Program-made: the position numbers and the translations under genes
The notes under the pieces: model-generated
The model's input: the letters and a program-made list of their open reading frames with translations, nothing else
What the model was told of the DNA's origin: nothing
Database searches by the model: none
Shown here: positions 24,040-38,298 of the stretch, one piece after another
Layout of the letters: each line of letters opens with the position of its first letter
Position numbering within the stretch: position 1 is the first letter of the stretch
From: Peredibacter starrii
GTDB taxonomy: Bacteria; Bdellovibrionota; Bacteriovoracia; Bacteriovoracales; Bacteriovoracaceae
Direction of reading: 5' to 3'
Length of the DNA stretch: 64,000 bases
Assembly: GCF_034259205.1 (NCBI RefSeq)
Contig: NZ_CP139487.1
Span: 434,001-498,000, forward strand

Positions 24040-24249
24040 ATGAAAGACAAGCTTATCGCTTATCTTAAAGACGAAACGGGGCAGACATCTACAGAGTACA
24101 TTCTACTCGTAGCTGTAGTTGCAACGATCGTTATTAAGTTTAAAGGCGCGATTGTTAAGAAGCTCTTTGGTGAGGGCGGAGACGGTAACGGGGGTATCCT
24201 CGGTACAGTTCTAAATGAAAGCAACTTCTCAGATTTCGCTAACCCGTAG
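24040..24249 (+). CDS. flp: Flp-type pilin (type IVb major pilin candidate)
   Basis: A 69-residue class III prepilin. A short basic leader ends in TG, with cleavage before QTSTEYILLVAVVATIVI; Glu at +5 and the Tyr after it are the Flp signature. A hydrophobic helix follows, then a Gly-rich tail (FGEGGDGNGGILG). It is the first gene of the Tad locus with the strongest ribosome site (AAGGGGG), fitting the major pilin. The prepilin peptidase is encoded two genes downstream. Confidence 0.9.
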   Translation: MKDKLIAYLKDETGQTSTEYILLVAVVATIVIKFKGAIVKKLFGEGGDGNGGILGTVLNESNFSDFANP

Positions 24250-24307
24250 GCTTCTAGTCAGTTTCTAGAAGCTTTACGGTTATCCGGCCCTTCGCTATCA
24301 TAATCTG

Positions 24308-24532
24308 ATGGTAGCGCTCAAAAGCTGTGGTCAAGCCACAGTCGAATACATTTTCATTCTTGCTTTCGCAGTCATGTTGGGATTCCAATTTGTAAACCGA
24401 TTTACTGAGTTTTTCCGCGATTCATTGGGAAGCGTTGGTCACGTGCTATCGACTCATCTCACAACCGGAATGTGTAAGCAGGACTGTTGGTATGAAGGCT
24501 ATAAGAACTCCTTCGTAGGTGAGGGTCCATGA
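24308..24532 (+). CDS. Class III prepilin-like protein (TadE-type minor pilin)
   Basis: A 74-residue protein with cleavage motif CG before QATVEYIFILAFAVMLG and Glu at +5, then an amphipathic segment and two Cys (CKQDC). It is probably a minor pilin or pseudopilin processed by the adjacent peptidase, whose start codon overlaps this stop (ATGA). The ribosome site before 24308 is poor, so it may be translated at low level or start slightly differently. Confidence 0.8.
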   Translation: MVALKSCGQATVEYIFILAFAVMLGFQFVNRFTEFFRDSLGSVGHVLSTHLTTGMCKQDCWYEGYKNSFVGEGP

Positions 24533-25023
24533 CCCCCATTATTTTTGGCCTTATCCTCATTCAACTCCTGGCAGTTGCCTGGATTGATTTAAAGACCCAT
24601 AAAATTTCTAATCGTTGGGCCATGCTGAATGTATTGCTTTCAGTAGTACTGCATTTATTTTTTCGCTCTCATTATCCATTAGACTGGGAAGTTCTGCTTT
24701 TTCCGGTTGGTTTCATTGTGATTGGTTTCTTCTTATTTTTGGTCAACATCATGGGAGCAGGGGATTCTAAATACCTCGCTTCACTTTTTCTGATTGTGCC
24801 AGTTGAACTTCACTTAGGATTCTTTGAACGCCTCATTCTAAGCACCATGCTTGTGGGTGCTTTCTTATTAAGTGCCAAGGTCATCAAAAACTTTGCGCAA
24901 CTCAGGGCCTACTTCATTGGACACTATTGGAGCGGGATAAAAGGAATAATTAAGTCTCGTTTTAGTTATGCACCGGTTATTCTGATTGCATGGATTATTC
25001 TGGGAGTTAATCAATGGAGATAA
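24529..25023 (+). CDS. cpaA: Prepilin peptidase CpaA/TadV
   Basis: A 164-residue membrane aspartic peptidase of the TadV/CpaA type (A24 family) that cleaves Flp prepilins. The two catalytic Asp are in AWIDLKTHKISN and MGAGDSKYLAS (GxGD motif). About five membrane segments are visible. It lacks the N-methylase domain of PilD, as expected for TadV. Translationally coupled to the preceding minor pilin and overlapping the next gene by ten bases. Confidence 0.9.
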   Translation: MTPIIFGLILIQLLAVAWIDLKTHKISNRWAMLNVLLSVVLHLFFRSHYPLDWEVLLFPVGFIVIGFFLFLVNIMGAGDSKYLASLFLIVPVELHLGFFERLILSTMLVGAFLLSAKVIKNFAQLRAYFIGHYWSGIKGIIKSRFSYAPVILIAWIILGVNQWR

Positions 25024-25331
25024 AAAATCAACGTGGTCAAACCATGGTTGAATATATTCTCCTCTTGGCAGTGGTGGTTTCACTGGTTCTGACTTTTTAT
25101 AATAGTGAGGCCTACAGAAGACTATTTGGAAGTCAGGGAAAATTTGGAACTAAGATTAAACAGGACAGTGAGTTTGCTTACCGTCATGCTTATCTTTCTA
25201 AAAACCAAGATGGCTCAATTGATCCGGATGTTTCGATTGGCGAGAAGGACATAACGGCGCATCCTTCCTATTATGACATTAAAAATAGCGGGACTAGATT
25301 TTTTGGTCCAAAAGATCCTTACGGTCAATGA
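25014..25331 (+). CDS. Class III prepilin-like protein
   Basis: A 105-residue protein with basic leader KNQRG cut before QTMVEYILLLAVVVSLVL (Glu +5). It has a long soluble tail rich in Tyr, Asp and Lys (HAYLSKNQDGSIDPDVSIGEKD). The tail is longer than in Flp pilins and short for TadE, so it is probably a minor pilin or tip protein. It overlaps the neighbours on both sides, indicating one operon. Confidence 0.82.
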   Translation: MEIKNQRGQTMVEYILLLAVVVSLVLTFYNSEAYRRLFGSQGKFGTKIKQDSEFAYRHAYLSKNQDGSIDPDVSIGEKDITAHPSYYDIKNSGTRFFGPKDPYGQ

Positions 25332-25852
25332 AAGCAAATAATCAAACCGGACAATCTACCATTGAGTTCATCTTCACCTTCGTATTTGGGGTGAGCATGA
25401 TTCTAATGATTTTTAATTCTTCGATGAATTATATTTCTGGTTATCTTGCCCATTATGCGACCTTCATGGCGAGTCGAGTTTATCTGACTGCTGATTCTCA
25501 TCTCGTGACTCCTGAAGGTTCTTTGAATGGAGCGGAGGAGAGGGCCCGTCAAACCTTCAACAATTACGCGCTTGGAATTTTTAAAATTCCGGAGGGCAGT
25601 TTTAAGATTAATCCTGCCGGTCAAACGACTCCTCAAACTTACTTAACAGTGGGTGCATACACGGCCTTTAGTTTAAGTATTGATGTCATGGGTAAAATCG
25701 CAGGTCAAAGTAAGCTCGACTATGTTTCAGAGTCTTTTCTAGGAAAAGAACCAACACGCGCTGAATGTTTTATTCGAACCTGTAAGGCCATTACGGGAAG
25801 AGATAATTGTACAATTAATGACGATATAACTGTTTTCGATGATGGTTGCTAA
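25328..25852 (+). CDS. TadE-like pseudopilin
   Basis: A 174-residue protein with the class III site TG before QSTIEFIFTFVFGVSMIL, with Glu at +5, Phe in place of the usual Tyr, and a long hydrophobic helix. The soluble domain has three C-terminal Cys (CFIRTCKAITGRDNC) plus a final Cys, probably disulphide-bonded in the periplasm. Size and composition fit TadE/TadF pseudopilins that help assemble Flp pili. Start overlaps the previous stop by four bases (ATGA). Confidence 0.83.
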   Translation: MKANNQTGQSTIEFIFTFVFGVSMILMIFNSSMNYISGYLAHYATFMASRVYLTADSHLVTPEGSLNGAEERARQTFNNYALGIFKIPEGSFKINPAGQTTPQTYLTVGAYTAFSLSIDVMGKIAGQSKLDYVSESFLGKEPTRAECFIRTCKAITGRDNCTINDDITVFDDGC

Positions 25853-26356
25853 ATGAAAGATCAAGACCAGGAATCAGGCCAGGCCCTGATTGAGCTCATT
25901 ATCTTTTTGCCACTTCTTTTCACCCTCTATACGGTGATCAGTGGTTTTGCGAACGCTATTAACGGTTCTATCAATCAACAGAAAGTCACCCGCGCGTATT
26001 TTTATTATAGAGTACAGAATAACTCGACTATTCCTAAACCGGATCCATCACCGGCCCCTTATGAAAGCTGGAGTCGATTTGGGATGTTCTTCATTGGTTG
26101 GAAATTAGAGTTCCAAAATGGCGAGCAACCGGTAATGCCTTGTTACCGGATCAGTATTCCCCTGGCCTCGGCCCCCACCGATAAGTGTGAAGACCAATAC
26201 ACCGATACAAATACTCTCTTCATCCGGGTGGGAACTGTATACGGAATGTGTGGCGCCACCTTCGTCAACCTCAATCGATCTACCTATTTCGCACCAGATG
26301 CAACTGGCATGTCTTTTAGAGAAGTAGTTGATCCTGGCAGTTGCTTAATCCAGTAG
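25853..26356 (+). CDS. TadE/TadG-like pseudopilin
   Basis: A 167-residue protein. Acidic leader DQDQESG is cut before QALIELIIFLPLLFTLY (Glu +5). The helix is followed by a periplasmic domain with four Cys (CYRISIP..., KCEDQY, MCGATF, GSCLIQ) and Pro-rich PKPDPSPAP. It starts on the base after the previous stop. It is the last of five prepilin-like proteins and probably a minor pilin. Confidence 0.82.
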   Translation: MKDQDQESGQALIELIIFLPLLFTLYTVISGFANAINGSINQQKVTRAYFYYRVQNNSTIPKPDPSPAPYESWSRFGMFFIGWKLEFQNGEQPVMPCYRISIPLASAPTDKCEDQYTDTNTLFIRVGTVYGMCGATFVNLNRSTYFAPDATGMSFREVVDPGSCLIQ

Positions 26357-26440
26357 GTAAAAAACGTCATTTTCCTCTACGCTTGGGAAAATCTGATATC
26401 ATTAAGTCATCGAAACTCCATTCAAAGTTTAGGATGAACA

Positions 26441-27271
26441 ATGAATAGCCGGGCATTTACTACCAGTCTAATTTTAGCAGCAGTCGCTGTGTTGATGATC
26501 TATTCATATATCTCAAGCCGTGAAACAGAACTTCAAAGTGAATACGGACAACAAACACCGGTTGTTGTGGCGAAAGAAGACATCAAAGAACTTGAAATCA
26601 TCGATGATAGAAAAGTTCAATTGATCAACGTTCCTTCAAAGTTTCAGATGCCTGGTAACTTCAAGCGAGTGGAAGATCTTTATAACACGATTGCGGCCGT
26701 TCCTATTAAGAAAGGTGAACAAATCACTGCTCCCAGAGTGACTTATCCAGGTGCTCAATCAGGTCTATCAAGACAAATTTCAATTGGTAAACGTGCGCTT
26801 TCAATTCGTGTGACAGAGGACTCTGCTGTCAGCCGTCTACTAAAACCAGGCGATCGTGTTGATGTACTTGCTCTGGTTGACTATGCCTCAGGTAAGAAAG
26901 AAAGACTGAAAGTTAAAACGGTTCTTCAAGACGTTCTGGTTTTATCAACAGGTCTGTTTGTTACGAACTCAGTTCCACTGGTTAACTTGAAGAGTGATAA
27001 TGACACTCGTCAGATGAAACTTAACAGCTACACAAACTACAATACTGTGACGCTGGAACTAACTCCTTTTGAAGTACAAAAAATGGTGTTTCTTGTTTCT
27101 GCCGGAAACGGAATCAGCCTTTCTCTTAGAAATAACGACGATAAGTCCATCGAGCGTATCAGTGCCACTCGTCTCTATGACGTATTAGGGGAAGATGCGG
27201 CCGAAGCGAAAACTTATTTCGCTGAACAGATGGCCAAAGAAACGAAAAGGACCGGACCGGGTGGCCGTTAG
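26441..27271 (+). CDS. cpaB: Flp pilus assembly protein CpaB/RcpC
   Basis: A 276-residue periplasmic protein with an N-terminal membrane anchor (SLILAAVAVLMIYSYI). An SAF/beta-clip domain follows (VVVAKEDIKELEIIDDRKV...IKKGEQITAPRV), then the RcpC domain (LSIRVTEDSAVSRLLKPGDRVDVLALVDY). CpaB is thought to gate or link the secretin to peptidoglycan. The ATG has AGGATG upstream, and the downstream cpaC start overlaps its end. Confidence 0.92.
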   Translation: MNSRAFTTSLILAAVAVLMIYSYISSRETELQSEYGQQTPVVVAKEDIKELEIIDDRKVQLINVPSKFQMPGNFKRVEDLYNTIAAVPIKKGEQITAPRVTYPGAQSGLSRQISIGKRALSIRVTEDSAVSRLLKPGDRVDVLALVDYASGKKERLKVKTVLQDVLVLSTGLFVTNSVPLVNLKSDNDTRQMKLNSYTNYNTVTLELTPFEVQKMVFLVSAGNGISLSLRNNDDKSIERISATRLYDVLGEDAAEAKTYFAEQMAKETKRTGPGGR

Positions 27272-28820
27272 ATTTCTCTCTCTCTTATTACTCCTGACAT
27301 TATCAAGTATGGCCTTAGGCCAGGATTCTTCAACTGCGCCTGCGACCACAACCACGGGTGGGGCATCGACCTCTGGACCGGTTGCTGAGAAAGAACTCGA
27401 AGTAGCGATGGGGATTGATGCCATCGAGAAATTGGATTTCGACTACAGCACCAAGATGACCATTGGTAACGACCAGCTTCTGAAACTGGTTCTGGTTCCG
27501 CAAAAGAAAGAAGTAATTTTTAAAGGTCTTAAACCGGGAAGAACTACGGTCCTTATCCGGGATAACTTAGGAGACATTCGTCTTCGTTATACCGTAGTGG
27601 TGACTGCCACCGGTAAATCCAATACTGTTTCTGAACTTCGCGAACTGATTGGTGACGTTGAAGGTCTAGAGATCGGTATTAAAGGTGGAAAGGTCTTCGT
27701 TGGCGGTGAAATTGTGGTACCGGATGATATCGGGAGAGTTTCACAAGTTCTTGCCAACTATCAGGATGTTCTGACTTTGATTGAACTTTCTCCGCAAACT
27801 CAGCGAGTGATCGCTCGTAAGATGAGTGATGAACTGGCAAAAAACAACTTAAAAGACGTTTCAGTTCGAGTGGTGAATAAGGTCTATTGGCTTGAAGGTG
27901 TCGTGAGTAGTGGTGATAAGAAGAAGCTCGCGGTAACAATCGCAAAAGCTTATCTTCCGCCAAAAATTATAAACCTTTCGGCCAACAGTAATCGCTATGC
28001 GACTCCGCAATCCGAAGACATCATCGATTTCATTGCGGTAAACGAAAAGAAAGACCCACAACCAGCACCGAAGATGGTGAAGATCACTTCACAATTTGTT
28101 GAATTGTCGAAAAGTTACAATAAAATTTTCGCCTTTAAATGGGCCCCCTTAATGGGTGAAGATGGTTCACAGATTTCTTTCGGTCAGACTGAATCTGGTA
28201 ACGTGACTTCAACTTCATCGGGAACATTGAGTGCCACGATTTCCAATCTCTTCCCGAAACTGAACTCTGCGAAGAGTGCCGGTTATGCTCGCGTGATTCA
28301 ATCCGGTATGGTGATTGTACGTGACGGTTTCGAGCAAGGTGGAGATATCAACAAGCAAACAACCATTCCATTCGCTGTTGGTACCGGAGACTTTACTAAG
28401 GCAACGGAGGCCAAGGTCGGTCTTTCAATGAACGTGAAACCAAAAGTTCTTGAGCAGGAAAAAATTGAGCTTGGGATTAACATGAGTGTAAACACTCAGG
28501 TGAGTGGTGGTAGTGCGCCTATCGTAACTTCTAACAGTGTGAACACCAACTTGATCTTAAAATCAAAAGAATCTGCCGCCATCGGTGGTGTGGTTCAAAG
28601 TCAATCAGTCACTGATTATGACAACACCGGAAACGATCCGGCCCCTCAACAGTCATCCACAGGTGGAGCAGGAGCAGGTTCTCCATTGTTCCGTCTATAT
28701 AGAGCAAAAAGTTATACGACTAACAAAAGTCAGTACGTGATTTTTGTGACTCCTGAAATTATTGAATCGGCCTCAGCAGGTTCAGAAGAAATCAGGAAGA
28801 AATTTAGAAGAAGAGAGTAG
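27261..28820 (+). CDS. cpaC: Tad outer-membrane secretin CpaC/RcpA
   Basis: A 519-residue secretin forming the outer-membrane pore for Flp pili. The start is taken at GTG 27261, which gives a signal peptide (MAVRFLSLLLLLTLSSMALG) and overlaps cpaB by 11 bases; the frame opens at 27195 without such features. An N-domain is followed by a BON-like module (LIGDVEGLEIGIKGGKVFVGGEIV), and the C-terminal secretin core carries EQEKIELGINMSVNTQVSG and NTNLILKSKESAAIGGVVQS. It ends with the VIFVTPEII strand typical of secretins. Confidence 0.93.
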   Translation: MAVRFLSLLLLLTLSSMALGQDSSTAPATTTTGGASTSGPVAEKELEVAMGIDAIEKLDFDYSTKMTIGNDQLLKLVLVPQKKEVIFKGLKPGRTTVLIRDNLGDIRLRYTVVVTATGKSNTVSELRELIGDVEGLEIGIKGGKVFVGGEIVVPDDIGRVSQVLANYQDVLTLIELSPQTQRVIARKMSDELAKNNLKDVSVRVVNKVYWLEGVVSSGDKKKLAVTIAKAYLPPKIINLSANSNRYATPQSEDIIDFIAVNEKKDPQPAPKMVKITSQFVELSKSYNKIFAFKWAPLMGEDGSQISFGQTESGNVTSTSSGTLSATISNLFPKLNSAKSAGYARVIQSGMVIVRDGFEQGGDINKQTTIPFAVGTGDFTKATEAKVGLSMNVKPKVLEQEKIELGINMSVNTQVSGGSAPIVTSNSVNTNLILKSKESAAIGGVVQSQSVTDYDNTGNDPAPQQSSTGGAGAGSPLFRLYRAKSYTTNKSQYVIFVTPEIIESASAGSEEIRKKFRRRE

Positions 28821-28822
28821 AG

Positions 28823-30943
28823 ATGCCAGGACATATTATTACAGTCATCGGTGGTAAGGGAGGCGTGGGGAAATCTCAGGTCGCGGCCAACCTCGCCCTT
28901 GCCTATGCGGGAGAAATTCGCGCAAAAACCTTGCTTTTGGATTTTGACCAGAAAGCATGTGGTGATCAGAATATTATTACTGGTCTGAAATCAAAAAAAA
29001 ACGTGAAGGAACTGGCGGACTTCTCAGGTGCCATTGATCCACGTTCAATTCAGCTTTTCACGGCCGATCATAAGGCAGGAATTTCTTTTATCGGTATGCC
29101 GACTGAGCCTATTGCTGCTAACCAGATCAATGAAGAGGGTCTCGGGAAAGCACTTAAGGCAATGGTAAATATCTATCCATTAATTGTGATCGATGCCGGA
29201 AGTGAGATCAGTCCTCTTGCACTAAAAGCAATGGAATTTTCTACCCTCATTTTCATCGTGGCCTCACCGGATCTTCTGGCAGTGAACCAGTGTAAGCGTA
29301 TGTACACTGATCTCATCACGATGCTTTTTCCAAAAGACATGATTCAAATTCTCGTTAACCAAGCAGTTAACGGTCACCCGGTAAGTCCGGACGTGATTGG
29401 GAAGCAGATTGGTAAACCTGTTTTTCATGCCATCCCTCGTGACGATGCCAGTTGTATTGCTGCCCTTTCTCGCTCGACACCTGTGGTAGTGGGCGCCAAA
29501 AACTCGCCATTTGGAACAGGTGTTGTAGATTGTGCACGAAAACTTATTCAGAAAAACGTTCTAAAGACCTTAGAGAAGCTGACGAAACCACAGGACGCTG
29601 GAGCAAAAGCGGCCAACGGTAATTCTACCAATGGTGAAGGTGGGGCCTCAGATGAGAAGAAACGTGATCATTGGACGGATTTAAAAAGCCGTATTCACAA
29701 ATCTCTTGTGGAAGAGATGGATCTTAAGAAACAAGACGATAGTGATCCAAAGGCAAAGATTATTCTTCGTGAGCAAACGAAGAAGATGGTCGTAGAACTT
29801 CTCGGGAAAGAGGACACAAAAAATATTCTTCCCACTCGTGATGATATGAACCGCATCGTGAAAGAAATTCTCGATGAGGCCCTGGGGCTTGGACCTCTGG
29901 AAGATATGCTTGCGGACAAATCCATCTCCGAGATCATGGTGGTGGGCCCGAAGAAAATTTATTATGAACAAAAAGGGAAAGTGAAGAAATCCGAAATCAC
30001 TTTCACCAATGACCGTCAGGTAATGAACGTTATTGAACGTATCGTGGCCCCGATTGGTCGCCGTATTGATGAAAAAACTCCTTACGTAGATGCTCGTCTA
30101 GCAGATGGTTCCCGTGTACACGCGATCATTCCACCCTGTGCGATTGATGGTTGTTGTATCACCATTCGTAAGTTCCCGGACAAACGCCTCACGTATAAAG
30201 ATCTTGTGAACTTTGGTGCCATGACTGAAGAGATGGCGGATTTCTTGCGTATCTCGGTTGAAGCTCACCGAAACATCGTTGTTTCCGGTGGTACCGGTTC
30301 CGGTAAAACAACACTCATTAACATGCTCGGCGGATTCATTCAGTCGAACGAACGTATTATTACCTGCGAGGACTCGGCGGAATTGAACTTCCCACAAGAC
30401 CACGTGGTACGTCTTGAAACACGTCCTCCTTCGCTTGAAGGTGATGGTGAAATTGATATTCGTTGTCTTGTAAAGCAGACCCTTCGTATGCGTCCTGACC
30501 GAATTGTGGTGGGTGAGTGTCGAGGCGGTGAAACTCTCGATATGTTACAAGCAATGAACACTGGTCACGATGGTTCGATGACGACAGTTCACTCAAATAC
30601 TCCGCGTGATGCGATTTCTCGTCTGGAAACTCTGGTTCAGTACGCTGGTGCCGGTCTTCCTCAAAAGGCGATTAAAGAAATGATCGCTTCTGCTGTTCAC
30701 ATGATTATTCAGCAATCTCGTCTTGATGATGGTTCACGTAAGTGTCTTTACATCACTGAGATCGGCGGTATCCAAGGTGAAGTGGTGACTCTTCAGGACA
30801 TCTTTGTCTTTAAACAAGAAGGGATGAATAAAGAAGGGAAGATCGTAGGGAAATTCATGGCCACCGGATTCATTCCGAAGTTCATCGAGACCCTGGAGAA
30901 AAAAGGCTACAAAGTTCCGAGAGGATTATTCATTAACAAATGA
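28823..30943 (+). CDS. cpaF: Fused TadZ/CpaE-like ParA ATPase and CpaF/TadA secretion ATPase
   Basis: A 706-residue fusion. Residues 1-255 are a MinD/ParA-type ATPase (deviant Walker A GGKGGVGKS at 10-18, LLLDFDQKACGDQN, LIVIDAGSEIS, FIVASPDLLAVNQCKRMY), the role of CpaE/TadZ in placing the pilus machine. After a Gly/Asn/Ala linker (about 256-285), residues 290-706 are the CpaF/TadA hexameric ATPase: GGTGSGKT with Lys495, ITCEDSAELNF (Asp box), RMRPDRIVVGECRGGET (Walker B) and MTTVHSNTPRDAISRLE (His box). Both active sites look intact, so localisation and motor functions are on one chain. It starts two bases after cpaC and overlaps tadB by four. Confidence 0.94.
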   Translation: MPGHIITVIGGKGGVGKSQVAANLALAYAGEIRAKTLLLDFDQKACGDQNIITGLKSKKNVKELADFSGAIDPRSIQLFTADHKAGISFIGMPTEPIAANQINEEGLGKALKAMVNIYPLIVIDAGSEISPLALKAMEFSTLIFIVASPDLLAVNQCKRMYTDLITMLFPKDMIQILVNQAVNGHPVSPDVIGKQIGKPVFHAIPRDDASCIAALSRSTPVVVGAKNSPFGTGVVDCARKLIQKNVLKTLEKLTKPQDAGAKAANGNSTNGEGGASDEKKRDHWTDLKSRIHKSLVEEMDLKKQDDSDPKAKIILREQTKKMVVELLGKEDTKNILPTRDDMNRIVKEILDEALGLGPLEDMLADKSISEIMVVGPKKIYYEQKGKVKKSEITFTNDRQVMNVIERIVAPIGRRIDEKTPYVDARLADGSRVHAIIPPCAIDGCCITIRKFPDKRLTYKDLVNFGAMTEEMADFLRISVEAHRNIVVSGGTGSGKTTLINMLGGFIQSNERIITCEDSAELNFPQDHVVRLETRPPSLEGDGEIDIRCLVKQTLRMRPDRIVVGECRGGETLDMLQAMNTGHDGSMTTVHSNTPRDAISRLETLVQYAGAGLPQKAIKEMIASAVHMIIQQSRLDDGSRKCLYITEIGGIQGEVVTLQDIFVFKQEGMNKEGKIVGKFMATGFIPKFIETLEKKGYKVPRGLFINK

Positions 30944-31911
30944 GAAAGCATTTTGTTTCACTCATTCTTCTTTTGGCCAGCATCCAGGTCTATGCTCAGG
31001 ATGTGGCACCGAAACGCCAGGTTGATTTCTGGTTGGATGTGCTCGGTCTAAAAGGTGTGTTGTTTGGAATTGGTCTGGCGGTATTTGCTTACGCTTATGT
31101 AAATAGTGTGAAGCTCTTTGCTTGGATTGATGATCAGACCTACGGGACCCGAGATTACATTCTAAAGAAATTCGAAATCATGTTTATCGAAGTCGACCCG
31201 AATAAGATCACTATTGGTCTTCTTATCATGTCATTCGGTATGGGAATTTTAGTTTTCTGTATTCTGGCCTTCATTGGAAAACTTCTACTCGGAACAATTG
31301 CAGGCATCGCAGTTCTTATTGCTGGTTGGAAATCACCTCGTCCCATTGTTGATTATTTTGAGGCCCGTCGTAAGAAGAAATATCAGATGCAGATGGTGGA
31401 TGCGCTTAACCTTCTGGCCAACGGTCTCAGAGCTGGTTTGACCATGCCTCAGGCGATCGGGATGGTGGTGGATGAGCTTCCGGCACCTGTGAGCCAGGAA
31501 TTCAATCTGGTTCTTCAACAAGCAAAGATCGGTGTTCCTCTGGATGAGGCCCTCGAGAACCTAAAGAAAAGAGTTTATACAGAAGACAACGAGATGTTCG
31601 TCACAAGTGTCAACATTTTGCGCGAAACCGGGGGTAATCTTGCCGAAGTTTTCGACACTATTGTGCTTGTGATTCGTGAACGTGTTCGTCTTCAACTGAA
31701 AATCGATACATATGTGGCCTCCGGTAAGATCCAGGCCTACATCATCGGGGCCATGCCGTTTGCCATGATCTTGATGTTTGGTAGTGGTGATCCGGACTAC
31801 TTTCCTCTTCTGTTTGGTACCGTTTTAGGAGTGATCGCTTTGATCGTGATTTGCGGGATGGTAGCTCTGGGAATGTGGATTATTATGAAGATTATTAATA
31901 TTAAAGTTTAG
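30940..31911 (+). CDS. tadB: Tad inner-membrane platform protein TadB
   Basis: A 323-residue T2SS-F family platform protein with an N-terminal signal-like helix, two early membrane segments (about 37-55 and 85-120), a cytoplasmic GspF domain (MQMVDALNLLANGLRAGLTMPQAIGMV, ILRETGGNLAEVFDTI) and two C-terminal membrane segments. Tad systems normally have two such proteins, TadB and TadC. Only one is encoded here, and the operon ends after it, so TadC is elsewhere or TadB acts as a homo-oligomer. Confidence 0.92.
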   Translation: MRKHFVSLILLLASIQVYAQDVAPKRQVDFWLDVLGLKGVLFGIGLAVFAYAYVNSVKLFAWIDDQTYGTRDYILKKFEIMFIEVDPNKITIGLLIMSFGMGILVFCILAFIGKLLLGTIAGIAVLIAGWKSPRPIVDYFEARRKKKYQMQMVDALNLLANGLRAGLTMPQAIGMVVDELPAPVSQEFNLVLQQAKIGVPLDEALENLKKRVYTEDNEMFVTSVNILRETGGNLAEVFDTIVLVIRERVRLQLKIDTYVASGKIQAYIIGAMPFAMILMFGSGDPDYFPLLFGTVLGVIALIVICGMVALGMWIIMKIINIKV

Positions 31912-31966: not shown

Positions 31967-33595
31967 ATGATGTTTATGAAACGACTCGCTCTGGCCCTCG
32001 TTGCGCTCATGATTGCAACGTTTGCTCATGCCGGAGTGAATTTAAAGAATGGAAACTTTTACATTTCATACACGGACATTGTGGTTCCGGGCGGTGGTAA
32101 AAAATTGGAAATCACCCGTACCTACAACTCTAAATCAACAGAAGTCGGCTGGTTCGGTTTCGGTTGGGGTAGTGAATATGAAACTCGTCTTGAAGTTTCG
32201 GCCGATGGTTCAATCATTGTGCATGAACACGGATCAGGTGCGAAAACACGCTTTACTCCAAAGACAGAAGTTGATGCTGTAGCGGCCTCTACAAAAATCG
32301 TAAATGAGATGAAAAAGAAAACGGCCCTAACTGAAAAGGCGGCGGCCGATCTGGTTCAAAAACTTGCAACAAACGCTGAACTTCGTCACACATACGCAAT
32401 GAACTTTGGTGTTCAGGCAGCTGTGGCCCCAGGAACAGTTCTTTATTCAAATGACCGTGGTCCTCAAGAGCTTTCTGTAACGAAAGAAGGTTACCGTCGT
32501 TCTCACAGTGATGGTAAGCAAGACTTCTTCAATAACGAAGGTCAACTAGTGAAGATGGCGGACAAGTCTGGCTACTTCATTTCTTTCGCTTATAAGAACG
32601 GTAATCTTGATTCAATTAAAGATTCACAAGCTAAGCAAATTTTCTTCTCTTGGTACCCGGATGGAATGGTAAAAGAAATCTGGTCTGCTGGTGACAAGAA
32701 AACTCTTTATAAGTATCAGGACTCAGATCTTGTTTACTCAAAAGACATTGGTGAAAACGTTTATGAGTTTGGTTATGACAAGTCTCACAACCTTTCTTCA
32801 ATCAGCTATGCTGATAAAACAAAACTTTCTATCGGTTATGACCAGAAGACTTTCTTCGTAACAAGCGTAACTGATCGTAACGGTGAAAATACAAAGTACC
32901 AGTATGGTTCTGATCCTAAGAGACCAGATGATCACTACTGGACTGTAGTAACTAAGCCAGGCTTCGATGGTAAGCCAGTTGCTAACCGTTATGAATATGA
33001 AATTAAGGCGAAGACAGATGGCTCTCGTTATACATACCGTATTCTGACTGAGATCAACGGTATCAAGACTGACACTATCTATGGTGACAACTCACTTCCA
33101 ATCAAAATTGCTCGTGGTAATCACGTAACAAATTTTGAATACAATGCTCAAGGTCTTCTTACAAAGAAATCTTCTACAAAAGGTGACTTTGTTAACATCG
33201 AATACGATGACAAGATCAACAAGATCAAAAAAGTTGTGAACAACGAAGGTACGACTGATTTCGAATACGATCCAAAAGGGAACCTTGTTAAAGCTGCCAA
33301 TAACCAAGGTAAGACTGTGTTCCTTATTTACGATACGAAAGGCAAGATCTCTAAGATGGTTGATCAAGAGTCTGCAAGCTCACGTCGCGTACTTGCTTTC
33401 AAGTACAATGCTCTTGGTAAGCCGGTAGAAATCGAAATGGAAAAAGTCGGTAAAATCAATGTTGCTTACGATAACTATGGTGAGATCAAGAAAGTTGAAT
33501 CGAGTGCCGGTCACAAGATGGCCCTTCAGGTAACTCAGGCTTTCCAAAACTTACTAACTATCGTTAAGCCTGCTGGCGTAAATCTAAACATGTAA
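31967..33595 (+). CDS. Exported RHS/YD-repeat protein, short form
   Basis: A 542-residue exported protein (signal ending ATFAHA). It begins with the DUF6531-like start common to RHS proteins (DIVVPGGGKKLEITRTYNSKSTEVGWFGFGWGSEYETRL) and continues with about a dozen YD-type strands (FEYNAQGLLTKKSS, FEYDPKGNLVKAANNQG, LIYDTKGKISKMVD, FKYNALGKPVEIEM). It lacks the hyperconserved RHS core and any C-terminal toxin domain. The ATG follows AGGTGG, and two further in-frame ATGs lie within ten bases. It is 56 bases after tadB and 11 before a tiny secreted protein gene. Possibly a surface shell or pilus-associated protein. Confidence 0.85.
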   Translation: MMFMKRLALALVALMIATFAHAGVNLKNGNFYISYTDIVVPGGGKKLEITRTYNSKSTEVGWFGFGWGSEYETRLEVSADGSIIVHEHGSGAKTRFTPKTEVDAVAASTKIVNEMKKKTALTEKAAADLVQKLATNAELRHTYAMNFGVQAAVAPGTVLYSNDRGPQELSVTKEGYRRSHSDGKQDFFNNEGQLVKMADKSGYFISFAYKNGNLDSIKDSQAKQIFFSWYPDGMVKEIWSAGDKKTLYKYQDSDLVYSKDIGENVYEFGYDKSHNLSSISYADKTKLSIGYDQKTFFVTSVTDRNGENTKYQYGSDPKRPDDHYWTVVTKPGFDGKPVANRYEYEIKAKTDGSRYTYRILTEINGIKTDTIYGDNSLPIKIARGNHVTNFEYNAQGLLTKKSSTKGDFVNIEYDDKINKIKKVVNNEGTTDFEYDPKGNLVKAANNQGKTVFLIYDTKGKISKMVDQESASSRRVLAFKYNALGKPVEIEMEKVGKINVAYDNYGEIKKVESSAGHKMALQVTQAFQNLLTIVKPAGVNLNM

Positions 33596-33605
33596 GGAGA
33601 TCTTT

Positions 33606-33848
33606 ATGAAAATACTTTTCGCATTAATGATTGCCGTTTCTGCCTCTGCTTTCGCTAACAATGAGAAGGCCATGGTTGGTGAGAATGCCAGCCCTGAATA
33701 TAAAAACTGTCTTGGCGAAGACAAGTGTCCATCTCAGATGTGTCAGAACTCTTGTGCCATGATCAACCGTGCCCAGTTTAAAGAAGACAGAAGCACGGCA
33801 AGCTCTCAGCCTAAAAGGGGCGGTAAGAGCAAAGCTTCAGCCCAATAA
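33606..33848 (+). CDS. Small secreted protein A of a tandem trio (ends KASAQ)
   Basis: An 80-residue protein with a signal peptide (MKILFALMIAVSASAFA) leaving a mature peptide of about 63 residues with five Cys (NCLGEDKCPSQMCQNSCAM) and a basic tail ending SKASAQ. The start has AAGGAG upstream and lies 11 bases after the RHS gene, so the two are probably co-transcribed. The C-terminus matches the small protein at 34425 and resembles the one at 34079 (SSATAQ). The opening NEKAMVGENAS also resembles NEEQSELGETAT of 34079. Function unknown. Confidence 0.85.
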   Translation: MKILFALMIAVSASAFANNEKAMVGENASPEYKNCLGEDKCPSQMCQNSCAMINRAQFKEDRSTASSQPKRGGKSKASAQ

Positions 33849-33874
33849 TCTCGTTTAAAATCGATTTTGATAGG

Positions 33875-33900
33875 AAGGCCCCTCTTGAAGGGGCCTTTTT
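33875..33900 (+). terminator. Intrinsic terminator after small protein A
   Basis: AAGGCCCCT (33875-33883), loop CTTGA, AGGGGCCTT (33889-33897) and T run. It ends the RHS/small protein A transcript and isolates the sigma-54 promoter downstream. Confidence 0.93.
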
Positions 33901-33934
33901 ATTTCTGTTCAAATAGACCAGCAAATCGAACAAT

Positions 33935-33953
33935 CTGACTATTTCTTAGACAC
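33935..33953. promoter_or_regulatory. Degenerate copy of the GTGTCTA-N5-TAGACAC enhancer-like site
   Basis: CTGACTA (33935-33941), TTTCT, TAGACAC (33947-33953): the right half is exact and the left half matches in 5 of 7 positions. The centre lies 80 bp upstream of the -24 GG at 34023-34024. That is about one helical turn further than the 68-70 bp at the two perfect sites, so it keeps the same face of the helix. Confidence 0.55.
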
Positions 33954-34021
33954 TTTTTCGGCCCTGTCTGAACTTTTAACACCCTTTGAACACATTTCAG
34001 TGACTTGGCCCTATTAGGTGT

Positions 34022-34036
34022 TGGCACGCTGATTGC
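34022..34036 (+). promoter_or_regulatory. Sigma-54 promoter of small protein B
   Basis: TGGCACG-CTGA-TTGC is a perfect match to the -24/-12 consensus. The transcription start should be near 34048, leaving a leader of about 30 bases with the GGGGGAAG ribosome site. Confidence 0.9.
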
Positions 34037-34078
34037 TTCACTAGTTGGTACATAGATTCATTTCCTAGGGGGAAGTAT

Positions 34079-34279
34079 ATGAAACATCTATTAGCATTCG
34101 CACTGGTATTTACATTCTTAACTAGCCTCAGCTTCGCTAATGAAGAACAAAGCGAACTAGGTGAAACAGCAACAGACTGCCCGATGATGGCAGAACGTAA
34201 CGAGAGAAGTAATCCGAAAGCAAATACCGGCTCTCAAGAAGTTAAGGTTCAAACTAAATCTTCAGCTACAGCTCAGTAA
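34079..34279 (+). CDS. Small secreted protein B of a tandem trio (sigma-54 driven)
   Basis: A 66-residue precursor with a signal peptide ending SLSFA, giving a mature peptide of about 47 residues: acidic start NEEQSELGETAT, the motif DCPMMAERNERS, then a polar Lys/Ser/Thr tail ending SSATAQ. The CP-M-E-R-E core is shared with protein C (ECPAMNESREK) and the tail with A and C. It has a single Cys, which could dimerise or anchor it. A perfect sigma-54 promoter lies upstream. No family recognised; too small for structural prediction by eye. Confidence 0.85.
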   Translation: MKHLLAFALVFTFLTSLSFANEEQSELGETATDCPMMAERNERSNPKANTGSQEVKVQTKSSATAQ

Positions 34280-34295
34280 TCTTTTTATTTCCAGG

Positions 34296-34314
34296 GTGTC
34301 TACTTGTTAGACAC
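34296..34314. promoter_or_regulatory. Palindromic enhancer-like site GTGTCTA-N5-TAGACAC (second perfect copy)
   Basis: GTGTCTA, CTTGT, TAGACAC lies within a larger inverted repeat (CAGGGTGTCT 34292-34301 with AGACACCCTG 34309-34318). Its centre is 70 bp upstream of the -24 GG of the next sigma-54 promoter. It also could act as a terminator hairpin for protein B, but no T run follows it, and the match to the site at 6270 supports a protein-binding role. Confidence 0.65.
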
Positions 34315-34372
34315 CCTGAAAATCTTTACACAATCACCCTTCCAGAAATCACACATTTATCACTCTTAAAAC

Positions 34373-34387
34373 TGGCACGAGACTTGG
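34373..34387 (+). promoter_or_regulatory. Sigma-54 promoter of small protein C
   Basis: TGGCACG-AGAC-TTGG matches the -24 element exactly and the -12 element except for its last base (consensus TTGC). Transcription should start near 34399, and a GAGGGGG ribosome site follows before the ATG at 34425. Confidence 0.75.
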
Positions 34388-34424
34388 ATATTAAATTACA
34401 AATATCAAAACTCGAGGGGGTTTT

Positions 34425-34586
34425 ATGAAAGCACTTATTTTTATCGTTTGTATGTGTATCGTTTCAGTATCAATGGCAGCAGAAACAGAAACAGAATGTC
34501 CGGCGATGAATGAGAGCCGTGAGAAAATCGTTAAAACAGAAAAACCGAAGACCACTCAAAGCCGAAGCAAAGCATCAGCTCAGTAA
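34425..34586 (+). CDS. Small secreted protein C of a tandem trio (53 residues, sigma-54 driven)
   Basis: A short gene easily missed by length filters. ATG at 34425 follows GAGGGGGTTTT and the frame closes with TAA at 34584-34586. A signal peptide (KALIFIVCMCIVSVSMA) is followed by AETETECPAMNESREK and a basic tail ending SRSKASAQ. The core ECPAMNESREK parallels DCPMMAERNERS of protein B, and the last six residues SKASAQ are identical to protein A. It is flanked by its own sigma-54 promoter and terminator, which supports a real gene. Function unknown; secretion is expected. Confidence 0.85.
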   Translation: MKALIFIVCMCIVSVSMAAETETECPAMNESREKIVKTEKPKTTQSRSKASAQ

Positions 34587-34593
34587 AATAAGA

Positions 34594-34621
34594 AAGGCCC
34601 CGATTAATTGGGGCCTTTTTT
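34594..34621 (+). terminator. Intrinsic terminator after small protein C
   Basis: AAGGCCCC (34594-34601), eight-base loop, GGGGCCTT (34610-34617), then T to 34621. Its end overlaps the stop codon of the convergent gene at 34620. Confidence 0.92.
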
Positions 34622-34952
34622 AATGGTTCTTGATGAGAGCATCGAGCTCTTTCTTTTCTTGTTCAGTAATTCTCTCGGCCGGCTCTTCAATGAGGATCTT
34701 CTTCTGGGCCGCTAATTTTGACTTCACAGAATCCTTAACTTTTGGAACTGAATTATCAAAAAGCTTCTTAGAATAAGTTTCGGTTTTGTTCACTGAGCGA
34801 GAGAAAAAATCTTCCGTAGTGTTCTGAGCATATTGAGTTGCCGGTGAGATGACCCCGTAGATGTGGGCGAAAATCGGTTTATCTTTAATTTCAATCGATA
34901 GGAAAAGTAGGAATCCAAAAAGAAGACCTGTGATCTTCAGAGCAGTTTTCAT
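34620..34952 (-). CDS. Membrane-anchored protein of unknown function
   Basis: A 110-residue protein with one N-terminal membrane helix (ALKITGLLFGFLLFLSI) and a largely helical, charged C-terminal part (VPKVKDSVKSKLAAQKKILIEEPAERITEQEKKELDALIKN) outside the membrane. AAAGGT precedes the ATG. It follows the CheX-like gene by nine bases and is probably co-transcribed with the CheY/CheX pair, which hints at a signalling or structural role that the sequence does not specify. Confidence 0.8.
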   Translation of the reverse strand: MKTALKITGLLFGFLLFLSIEIKDKPIFAHIYGVISPATQYAQNTTEDFFSRSVNKTETYSKKLFDNSVPKVKDSVKSKLAAQKKILIEEPAERITEQEKKELDALIKNH

Positions 34953-34961
34953 TTAATACCT

Positions 34962-35408
34962 TTAGTTCAGTGCCGTGAGATTATATTCAATCAGAACGTT
35001 AAAAATTTGTTCTTCTAGTTCCAGGTCATACTTCTGAGTCAGAGCGCGAAGGGATGTATTGATCTCTTTAGCAATCATACTTAGCTTAGGCGACGATAGG
35101 TTTAGTTTGAAGTTACTTAGTTCGTCATCCAGAGTGATCTGGCGACCAATCAGGATGTTCATTGATTCCACAAACAAAGGAAGAATGTAGTTTCTTTCTG
35201 CTTGAGTCAGCTCATGTCCATCCAGGCAAAGGTAACATGTGATGCCACCACGGATTTCTCCGCTGATGTCAAACTGCACTCTTAAATTGTCTTTTGAGTA
35301 AATAGGGTTCAGATCCAGTTTATGGATCAGCCTTACGTTATGAAGGATCTTAATTTCTGAAATTCTTGCGAGCTCAATCGGTTTAGAAACGTCCATGTTT
35401 TCCGCCAA
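34962..35408 (-). CDS. CheX/CheC-like CheY phosphatase-type protein
   Basis: A 148-residue protein. Its middle, LPLFVESMNILIGRQITLDDELSNFKLNLSSPKLS, has the CheC/CheX hallmark E-x-x-N (ESMN) followed by an I-G segment and the later S-S-P strand. In CheX these Glu and Asn residues dephosphorylate CheY-P. The surrounding strand ISGEIRGGITCYLCLDG also fits the fold. It lies six bases after the CheY-like gene, the expected partner. Moderate confidence, since the sequence is divergent. Confidence 0.7.
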   Translation of the reverse strand: MAENMDVSKPIELARISEIKILHNVRLIHKLDLNPIYSKDNLRVQFDISGEIRGGITCYLCLDGHELTQAERNYILPLFVESMNILIGRQITLDDELSNFKLNLSSPKLSMIAKEINTSLRALTQKYDLELEEQIFNVLIEYNLTALN

Positions 35409-35414
35409 TGTTTT

Positions 35415-35795
35415 TTAATCTTGCGTAATAATTTTTTCCAGTGAGTCTATGAGTTGCTGCTTTTGAATAGGTTTTGCAATGAAGTCACTTGCCCCGGCAC
35501 CGATCGCCTCAAGCACAATGTGCTCTTGAGATAGCGAAGAAACCACAATCACTGAAATGTCTTCATAACTCTTAGTGATTCTTTCAGTGAGTTCAATGCC
35601 ACTTACTTCCGGCATCACGATATCAGTAATAACGATGTTTGGCTTCTTGCTCTTGATGACTTGCAGTGCCGCTTCGGCGCCATTGGCCTCACCCACAATT
35701 TCAATTCCTTCCTCGATAAGCATTCTTCTAATAATGCTGCGGGAGAAATCTGAATCATCAACGATAACTACTTTAATATCTGCTTTGTCACTCAT
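35415..35795 (-). CDS. CheY-like single-domain response regulator
   Basis: A 126-residue receiver domain. Acidic pair in VVIVDDSDFSRSII, phosphoacceptor Asp in IVITDIVMPEVSG, Ser switch in VIVVSSLSQ and Lys in FIAKPIQK are all present. No output domain, so it acts through protein contacts. The ATG at 35795 is chosen because the receiver begins there (MSDKADIKVVIVDD); the frame runs on upstream into the lon end but that part is not domain-like. The CheX-like gene follows directly, suggesting a dedicated phosphorylation/dephosphorylation pair. Confidence 0.92.
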   Translation of the reverse strand: MSDKADIKVVIVDDSDFSRSIIRRMLIEEGIEIVGEANGAEAALQVIKSKKPNIVITDIVMPEVSGIELTERITKSYEDISVIVVSSLSQEHIVLEAIGAGASDFIAKPIQKQQLIDSLEKIITQD

Positions 35796-35831
35796 GCAGA
35801 TTAGGATATCAAATTTAAGGAAGTTGAAAAG

Positions 35832-35858
35832 AAAAAGGGCCCTCAGAAGAGGGCCCTT
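35832..35858 (-). terminator. Intrinsic terminator after lon
   Basis: On the minus strand AAGGGCCCTC-TTCT-GAGGGCCCTT makes a ten-pair stem followed by T. It lies between the lon stop codon and the CheY-like gene, so the latter must have its own promoter or rely on read-through. Confidence 0.92.
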
Positions 35859-35862
35859 ATTT

Positions 35863-38298
35863 TTATGCGGCGACTTGGTCGTTTTTAGTACGGGGTTTGG
35901 TGGTCTTCTCGTCCTTACGTTTCGTCTGGTCAAGGTCTAGTTGACGATTCCAGTCTACTAAGGCGATCTCGAGCACTTCTTGAATGTTCTTCACCGGAAT
36001 AAAGTTAAGCTTCTTGCGGTATGCGGCCGGGATCTCCAGTACATCTTTTTGGTTTTTCCAAGGGATGATTACTGTTTCAATTCCCGCTCTCATGGCCGCA
36101 AGAGCTTTCTCTTTAATACCACCTACTGGAAGTACCTTACCAGTAAGAGTGATTTCACCAGTCATCGCAATATCCTTACTGATGTAAGTGTTCGTGATAA
36201 GCGATGTGATTACTGTTGCTAATGTAATACCTGCTGAAGGACCGTCTTTAGGGATGGCACCTGCTGGCAAGTGGATATGAATTTCGTTCTCTTCAAAGAA
36301 CTTATCTTCAATTCCCAGTTCAGCTGCGTGGCTACGGATGAAACCCATTGCTGCGTGCGCTGATTCTTTCATGACGTCACCAAGTTGACCTGTCAGCGTG
36401 ATACCGCGACCTTTCATCTTAGTTGCTTCGATGTGAAGAATTTCACCACCACCGGCCGTCCAGGCAAGACCTGTAGCAACACCCACTTCATCGTACTCGT
36501 TTGAGTCTTCGTGAGAGTAGATTGCCGGTCCAAGTAGTTCTTCAACCGTAGCAGAAAGAATGTGCGTTTTGTCGCCATGGCCAGAAGCGATCTTCTTTGC
36601 CACTTTTCTACAAAGAGCACCTACTTGTCTCTCTAGGTTACGAAGGCCCGCTTCACGAGTGTAACCTGAGATGACAAATTCAACACCTTCATCATGGAAC
36701 TCAATGTGTTCGTCAGTGATTCCATGCTCATCCATTTGTTTTGGAATGAGGTATTTTTTAGAAATTTGTACTTTTTCTTCCTGACTGTAACCAGCAAGGT
36801 TAATCACTTCCATACGGTCACGAAGTGGACCTGGGATTTGATCAAGCATGTTGGCAGTTGCAATGAACATGATCTTAGAAAGGTCATAGTTCATGTTCAG
36901 GTAGTTATCTCTGAACGTAAAGTTCTGCTCTGGATCCAATACTTCAAGTAGTGCTGAAGATGGATCACCTTTGAAATCAGAACCAAGCTTATCGATCTCA
37001 TCGAGAAGGATAATAGGGTTTGTTGTTTTACATTGCTTCATGGCCTGGATGAAACGACCTGGCATTGCACCTACGTATGTACGACGGTGACCACGGATTT
37101 CTGATTCATCTTTTACACCACCAAGAGCGATTCTTACGAACTCACGTCCTGTTGCTTTGGCAATTGATTTACCAAGAGAAGTTTTACCAACACCTGGAGG
37201 ACCAGAGAAACAAAGGATAGGTCCTTTGGCCTTGGCTCCTTTAAGTGAACGAACTGCAAGGTATTCAAGAATACGTTCTTTAACTTTTTCCAGATCAAAG
37301 TGATCTTCATCGAGTACGTCTTTTGCGTATTGAAGATCTGTCACTTCTTTTGATTCTTCAGACCATGGAATATCGCATACCCATTCAAGGTAAGAGCGAA
37401 GAATACTTGCCTCAGAAGAATCCGGGTGCATTCTTTCTAAGCGACCAAGTTGCTTAAGCGCTTCTTTCTCAGCATCTGCTGGAAGTGCTTTTGCCGTAAG
37501 TTTTTCGCGGATCTCCGCAAACTCATCGTTCTTATCGCCGTTCTCATCATTAAGTTCTTGTTTCATGGCCTTGATCTGCTCGCGTAGGAAGAACTCTTTT
37601 TGGTTCTTGGCAAGATCATCTTTATTATTGGCCTTAAGCTTCGCTTGTTGAACCAGAACATCCAGTTCGTTTACCAGAACTTGATTGATGTGGCCCAAAC
37701 GCTCAACCGGATCAAGGATCTCTAAAACTTTTTGAGCTTCAGATACTTTTAGATTTAGGTTAGAAGCGACCAGATCAGCAAGGCGGCCTGGATCCTGGAT
37801 ATCTTCAAGCACCATCAGAATGTCTGGTGAAAGAACTTTTCCAAGAGAAATAACTTTTTCCAGATTTTCTTTTACTGTACGAGCAAGAGCTTCAATCGTC
37901 GCCGGTGCAGCAGTTACTTGTTGAGTTTCTACTTTCTCAACTTTCACTTGATAGAAAGGTTCTGTGCCAACGAACTCTTTGATACGAGCTTTTGCCAGAC
38001 CCTGAATTAAGATTTTAATTCTACCATCGGGTAGTTTGCGCATACGCATGATCATCGCCACTGTTCCCATCTCATAAATCTCAGATGGTGAAGGTGTCTC
38101 GGCAGTGATGTCTTTCTGAGAAGAAAGTAGGATCAGCCTGTCTGTGTTATTCAGAGATTCTTCTACTGCTTTAATAGAAGTCTCACGACCCACAAACAAA
38201 GGCAGGATCATAAAAGGGTATACCACAAGATCGCGAACCGGCAGGAGAGGGAGCGTTTCCTTGAATTCAATTGCTTCGCCCTCATAATTCGTTACCAT
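35863..38298 (-). CDS. lon: ATP-dependent Lon protease
   Basis: An 811-residue Lon of bacterial LonA type that degrades misfolded and regulatory proteins. Order: N-terminal LON substrate-binding domain ([24 protein letters not shown]), coiled middle, AAA+ module with Walker [10 protein letters not shown] and Walker [13 protein letters not shown], then the Ser-Lys protease domain ([13 protein letters not shown] with Ser at about 688 and [14 protein letters not shown] with the Lys at about 731). A C-terminal basic tail ([15 protein letters not shown]) is slightly longer than usual. AGAGGAG precedes the ATG. Divergent from glmU. Confidence 0.99.

Follow-up and report, generated by a model that had tools for sequence, protein, structure and literature searches.

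Why should several very small secreted proteins, encoded one after another in a predatory bacterium, end in nearly the same residues? The question is raised by a window of 64,000 nucleotides from Peredibacter starrii (contig NZ_CP139487.1, positions 434,001 to 498,000), the whole stretch of DNA analysed here. An earlier note on this DNA had pointed out three tiny proteins of 80, 66 and 53 residues, each with a signal peptide, ending in SKASAQ, SSATAQ and SKASAQ. These open frames, hereafter A, B and C, and their tails were verified, and their coordinates are given in Table 1 together with those of the surrounding features.

Table 1. Coordinates of the features discussed, in the window unless a genome and contig are indicated.
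Feature	Position	Strand	Remarks
Tad/Flp pilus cluster	24040..31911	+	Flp-like ORFs, prepilin peptidase-like ORF, minor pilin candidates, RcpC, secretin, CpaE-CpaF fusion, TadB-like
CpaE-CpaF fusion	28823-30943
Bd0109 orthologue	31967..33595	+	secreted Rhs/YD-repeat protein
Protein A	33606..33848	+	80 aa, secreted, 4 Cys, Bd0108 position
Tail of A (KASAQ)	33831..33845	+
Hairpin 3' of A	33875..33901	+	terminator-like
Sigma-54-type site of B	34022..34036	+	TGGCACGCTGATTGC
Protein B	34079..34279	+	66 aa, secreted, one Cys
Tail of B (SATAQ)	34262..34276	+
Hairpin 3' of B	34292..34318	+	read from sequence
Sigma-54-type site of C	34373..34387	+	TGGCACGAGACTTGG
Protein C	34425..34586	+	53 aa, secreted, one mature-part Cys, B paralogue
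Tail of C (KASAQ)	34569..34583	+
Hairpin 3' of C	34589..34622	+	terminator-like
Convergent neighbours	34620-35933	-
137-aa protein ending RSASAQ	G000:C1:814187-814597	-	elsewhere in the window genome
Protein D	e.g. G282:C118:27869-28636		loci L293-L313; ~255-300 aa, secreted, unlinked

The identity of the locus was established from the gene that precedes A. It codes for a secreted Rhs protein of 542 residues with a DUF6531 domain, Tad genes being located upstream of it. The predicted structure of this protein (pLDDT 84) matches Rhs shells, teneurins and TcC proteins; with 542 residues, there is no room for the toxin-bearing C-terminus of these matches. The Rhs protein is present in 279 of the 291 genomes of the phylum, and that of the window is 35% identical to the protein encoded at positions 97203-98849 of a relative genome (G105), which we take to be Bdellovibrio bacteriovorus HD100. 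There, the Rhs match is followed by a 101-residue protein ending in GTGRQ, which agrees with Bd0108 in length and terminal residues (101 residues, Q101 and the cloning primer given in PMC4267844). This succession in HD100 identifies the window locus as the hit locus, with A in the place of Bd0108. The trio thus makes up the distal section of the host-interaction (hit) locus found in predatory Bdellovibrionota and lies 3' of the Tad pilus genes, a context that had escaped the earlier note. The start of A lies 10 bases past the Rhs stop codon, as throughout the genus, and in most other genomes examined a small secreted protein is encoded directly 3' of the Rhs gene, sometimes about 100-200 bases further on.

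According to PMC3818213 and PMC4267844, in HD100 the Tad/Flp genes and the Rhs gene bd0109 are likewise followed by a gene for a small, secreted, disordered protein of CxxC type; Bd0108 binds Bd0109, and its loss leads to host-independent growth. However, A has no sequence homology to Bd0108, and its candidacy as a direct homologue was rejected at a profile-profile probability of 0.3%. The window also differs from HD100 in carrying two further peptides preceded by sigma-54-type sites and a single genome-specific tail on all three, features that are not reported in the available parts of the two papers. In Halobacteriovorax marinus SJ, BMS_0183 and BMS_0184 are two small signal-peptide neighbors of the Bd0109 homologue BMS_0182; only their non-homology to Bd0108 is noted in the available text of PMC4267844, where tails and promoters are not discussed. 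A literature search for Bd0107 found nothing.

How the three proteins relate to one another was then assessed by profile comparison. B and C are homologous (hhalign probability of 99.3%), and the CP-x-M core that they had been said to have in common was found genus-wide as T-[ED]-C-P-x-M. No relatedness of A to B or C was detectable at the sequence level; of the mature N-terminal pattern previously attributed to A and B, a [VL]GE motif stood and nothing beyond it. None of the three proteins had a match above cut-off in Pfam or NCBIfam, and no RNA family was found in the trio region. The AlphaFold model of A has a mean pLDDT of 62, and CGPC-like pairs are present in many A homologues, the window protein having CPSQMC. 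A, B and C are best explained as Bd0108-position proteins of the hit locus, secreted, Cys-bearing and probably largely disordered.

In the genus of the window, the Rhs gene was found in 25 of the 26 genomes searched, and A, B and C occur in the same order in every contig extending far enough. The absence of the trio from relatives, which the earlier note had considered, is thus not the case. Strong matches to the B/C profile in the genus are confined to the locus, two per genome, and unlinked paralogues were dismissed. Upstream of B and C, but not of A, lies a TGGCAC-N5-TTGC-type element, a near-consensus candidate sigma-54 site about 50 bases 5' of the start codon. Numbering the genes 1 to 3 in the order of the locus, such a site precedes gene 2 in 95% of the genus representatives, 76% of the rest of the family, 5 of 7 Bdellovibrio-type genomes and 93% of the others, and gene 3 in 55-75% wherever cases suffice; for gene 1 the figure is 0-13%. 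Shuffled sequences gave 0-2%. The suggestion that B and C have their own sigma-54 promoters is therefore supported by putative sites conserved across the phylum. In HD100, a second secreted ORF of 66 residues ending in SKGWN lies about 0.5 kb on, 3' of bd0108 and 520-720 bases after the end of the Rhs gene (Bd0109), and has the sigma-54-type site TGGCACACGCGATGCA. It is not mentioned in the available parts of the hit-locus papers (PMC3818213, PMC4267844), and homology of gene 2 to this peptide was undetectable.

The common C-terminus proved to be of another kind than previously supposed. A conserved motif K-x-S-A-x-A-Q had been proposed, with the absence of conservation among orthologues as the observation that would speak against it; the orthologues do not have this motif, which was dropped, and their tail identity is no more than 23-34% even where the Rhs proteins of two genomes share 85-96% of their residues. 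Instead, tails are alike within a genome and different between genomes. This is illustrated by SKVRGQ/SKVRSQ/SRVVRQ, RAVKR/KAIRK/AAIKK, DSKERG/GSKERG, SSTIDG/SSSIDG and THVAPR/VPVAPR, each set coming from one genome. Within one genome, the tail identity between genes 1 and 2, which are unrelated, is 33%, vs. 23% for gene-1 orthologues at 85-96% Rhs identity.

To score this coupling, the five C-terminal residues of gene 1 and gene 2 were compared with BLOSUM62, the gene 2 tails being shuffled among genomes. Over all 91 representatives, the score was 4.87 vs. -0.44 after shuffling (z 11.4). The hypothesis was formed on loci L030-L105 and validated on L106-L225, with Rhs proteins less than 95% identical to the first set; the statistics of the first set are post hoc, and the validation set and the protein D result described below are the cleaner tests. 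In the 42 validation representatives not used to form the idea, the coupling persisted (z 5.5), and windows 5, 10 and 15 residues upstream gave z values of 1.0, -0.1 and -0.7. When tails were shuffled solely inside clades with 75% or more Rhs identity, z was still 5.6, and contrasts between sister pairs were 30 for and 9 against (P 5e-4), compared with 20:18 for the control window at 10 residues. The coupling is strongest in the family of the window (z 10.5); a set of 19 other genomes shows it more weakly (z 2.6, P 0.008), and it is suggestive in 7 Bdellovibrio-type genomes (P 0.015). Small genes were identified with rules (signal-peptide heuristics and a ribosome site), and many of the compared genomes are metagenome assemblies. 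Some of the pairs are probably miscalled, an error expected to dilute the signal rather than create it.

A clear signal per position is limited to residues -1 to -5, and the register is exact: z is 10.8 at shift 0 and -1.2 to 1.8 at shifts 1-4, a displacement of one residue either way giving -1.2 and 0.5. Matching tail residues are encoded by different codons in 55 of 114 cases, and the 3' flanks of the tail genes are at background identity, which rules out gene conversion as the source of the tails. The A-C pair, also unrelated, shows the likeness too. As judged from the compared sequences, these results show that the C-terminal ends of several secreted, mutually unrelated proteins are held alike by selection in each genome, while they change from one genome to the next. 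The idea that the shared end is a functional tag is thus strongly supported for the last five or so residues, which are under selection and locked to the free end, and abandoned in the form of a conserved motif.

Some genomes mismatch in their tails, as do the sister genomes G010 and G004 (loci L041 and L048), where the tails look exchanged between genes (GAIQG/GVTAQ/SVTRE vs. KATAQ/SAVRG/GAIRG). At locus L105, the first protein ends in GTTGIGE and the second has GTVGIGE followed by the eight-residue extension GNTSSNNY, as would result from the loss of a stop codon.

Carriers of the tails outside the locus were sought with degenerate patterns in six genomes. In two of them (G170 and G301), only members of the locus were found. 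In G145, searched with [ST]IDG, the two members already known were joined by a third secreted peptide some 3 kb further on, and a looser pattern in G023 returned protein A together with two large ORFs that are difficult to interpret. In the window genome, the trio was accompanied by one 137-residue secreted Cys-repeat protein ending in RSASAQ; it has few relatives, of which the only one whose end can be read does not carry the local tail, so the likeness is probably due to chance and the protein was rejected as a tag carrier. In G300, the same genome as G282, the search returned the trio and an unlinked secreted protein of 256 residues, protein D, which ends in SSNTSK exactly as genes 2 and 3 of this genome do. 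Relatives of D occur in 21 of 125 genomes of the family; no match at E<=1e-5 was obtained in the window genus. The D tails vary in step with the trio tails of the respective genome: TNVSK occurs with TNISK/KNVSK, VISK with VLTK/VLTK, TIER with ATVR/TIVR and TSGQ with GTGQ/GSAQ. By shuffling, the coupling of D reached z values of 4.9 with gene 1, 5.4 with gene 2 and 4.6 with gene 3, the upstream control windows being null. A sigma-54-like site about 50-75 bases 5' of the start was seen in most relatives outside the discovery genus, in several genera, and not clearly inside it. For D, neither a Pfam match above cut-off nor a convincing sequence match in the PDB was obtained.

What could such tails do? 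The shared tail points to a common partner. We give an even chance to a mechanism in which genome-specific tags of about five residues, one at the extreme C-terminus of each of A, B and C, would all bind one extracytoplasmic partner through the free C-terminus, partner and tags co-evolving. A, which lacks a sigma-54 site, would follow the Tad and Bd0109 genes, whereas sigma-54 would turn on B, C and part of the D genes. Because the putative sites precede B, C and some D genes but not A, the simplest model is one of exchange or competition when the sigma-54 activator is on: with the tag, B, C and those D proteins could bind the partner alongside A, in competition with it or in its place, which would tune the Bd0108/Bd0109 switch of pilus and growth mode. 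The competition and the regulatory role are deduced from the promoters and from published work that concerns Bd0108 alone. By NMR, it was found that residues 24-66 of Bd0108 mediate its binding to Bd0109, with residues 89-101 unaffected (PMC4267844). The tail would hence be available to another partner, which fits a two-ended adaptor holding the Rhs protein by its core and a second partner by its tail. No partner of the tail was found; alignment columns of the Rhs protein showed no convincing covariation with the tail, and the Rhs protein was set aside as a candidate since no clear outliers beyond phylogeny emerged. The genomes with mismatching tails, the weaker coupling outside the family and the lack of D matches in the window genus likewise speak against this mechanism. 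PDZ-type ligands, ssrA-like tags and the outer-membrane beta-signal offer analogies, each consisting of a few residues locked to the free C-terminus, carried by unrelated proteins and recognized by one partner; the tails, too, are a free-end-locked motif on unrelated proteins. These known signals are largely conserved between species and usually have hydrophobic ends, whereas the present tails are mostly polar and differ between sister species.

Among other readings, the tail could serve sorting or stability. A general envelope factor, either the outer-membrane export machinery or a tail-specific protease, would recognize it with a preference that varies from genome to genome. The tag on an unlinked secreted protein would also fit; a general factor should, however, mark many proteins, and the near-absence of other carriers in the exact-tail searches of six genomes makes this reading fairly unlikely. 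Alternatively, the tails could bind each other, similar C-terminal strands pairing so that the peptides co-assemble on the cell surface or the pilus. This would explain alike tails without a co-evolving receptor, for proteins that are polar, probably disordered, and have Cys able to link them. We regard it as unlikely, the exact last-residue register pointing rather to recognition of the free carboxyl end and the tail being also carried by the much larger protein D.

It is quite improbable that the tail is released as a species-specific signaling peptide controlling growth mode between kin. As in Phr/PapR-type propeptides, a signal peptide and a short variable pro-region precede a variable C-terminal peptide, here a pentapeptide; the tails differ between sister species, and PMC4267844 notes a quorum-like character of host-independent growth. 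Yet neither a processing site nor a receptor is known, the conserved Cys cores, a difference from such propeptides, suggest that the whole protein matters, and D bears the tail on 256 residues. Finally, the likeness might be functionless and due to gene conversion, recent common descent or biased composition, to which we attach a very small probability. B and C being paralogues, their likeness taken by itself could be descent; the coupling, however, holds for the unrelated pairs A-B and A-C and for D with each, synonymous codons and flanks differ, and upstream windows and shifted registers are null. As a full account, absence of function is refuted by the register, codon and D results.

Returning to tags read by one co-evolving partner, a wider form of this mechanism appears possible, if somewhat less than probable: a genome-specific address code, in which a fast-evolving five-residue tag on several unrelated secreted proteins, at the hit locus and elsewhere, would be read by a dedicated co-evolving receptor, making the Bd0108-type switch private to a species and possibly serving kin recognition. 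It has long been asked how Bd0108 and Bd0109 move predators from prey-dependent to free growth and back. Nearly the whole phylum has a set of secreted peptides in the place of Bd0108, with extra members preceded by putative sigma-54 sites. Bd0108 has been described as specific to Bdellovibrio and without homology to known families, and to our knowledge there is no other description of a short, fast-changing C-terminal tag that is kept in step on unrelated secreted proteins.

Besides, several features of the surroundings were noted. In the Tad cluster, MinD/CpaE-like and CpaF-like (T2SSE) domains are fused in one protein of 706 residues. In the window Rhs protein, the sequence AGVNL directly follows the signal peptide and recurs at the extreme C-terminus (PAGVNLNM); the alignments show hardly any variation in either stretch. 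The convergent neighbors of the trio are proteins of 110 and 148 residues without NCBIfam match and a CheY-like regulator, and a response regulator lies near the locus in 64 of 71 representatives from outside the genus.
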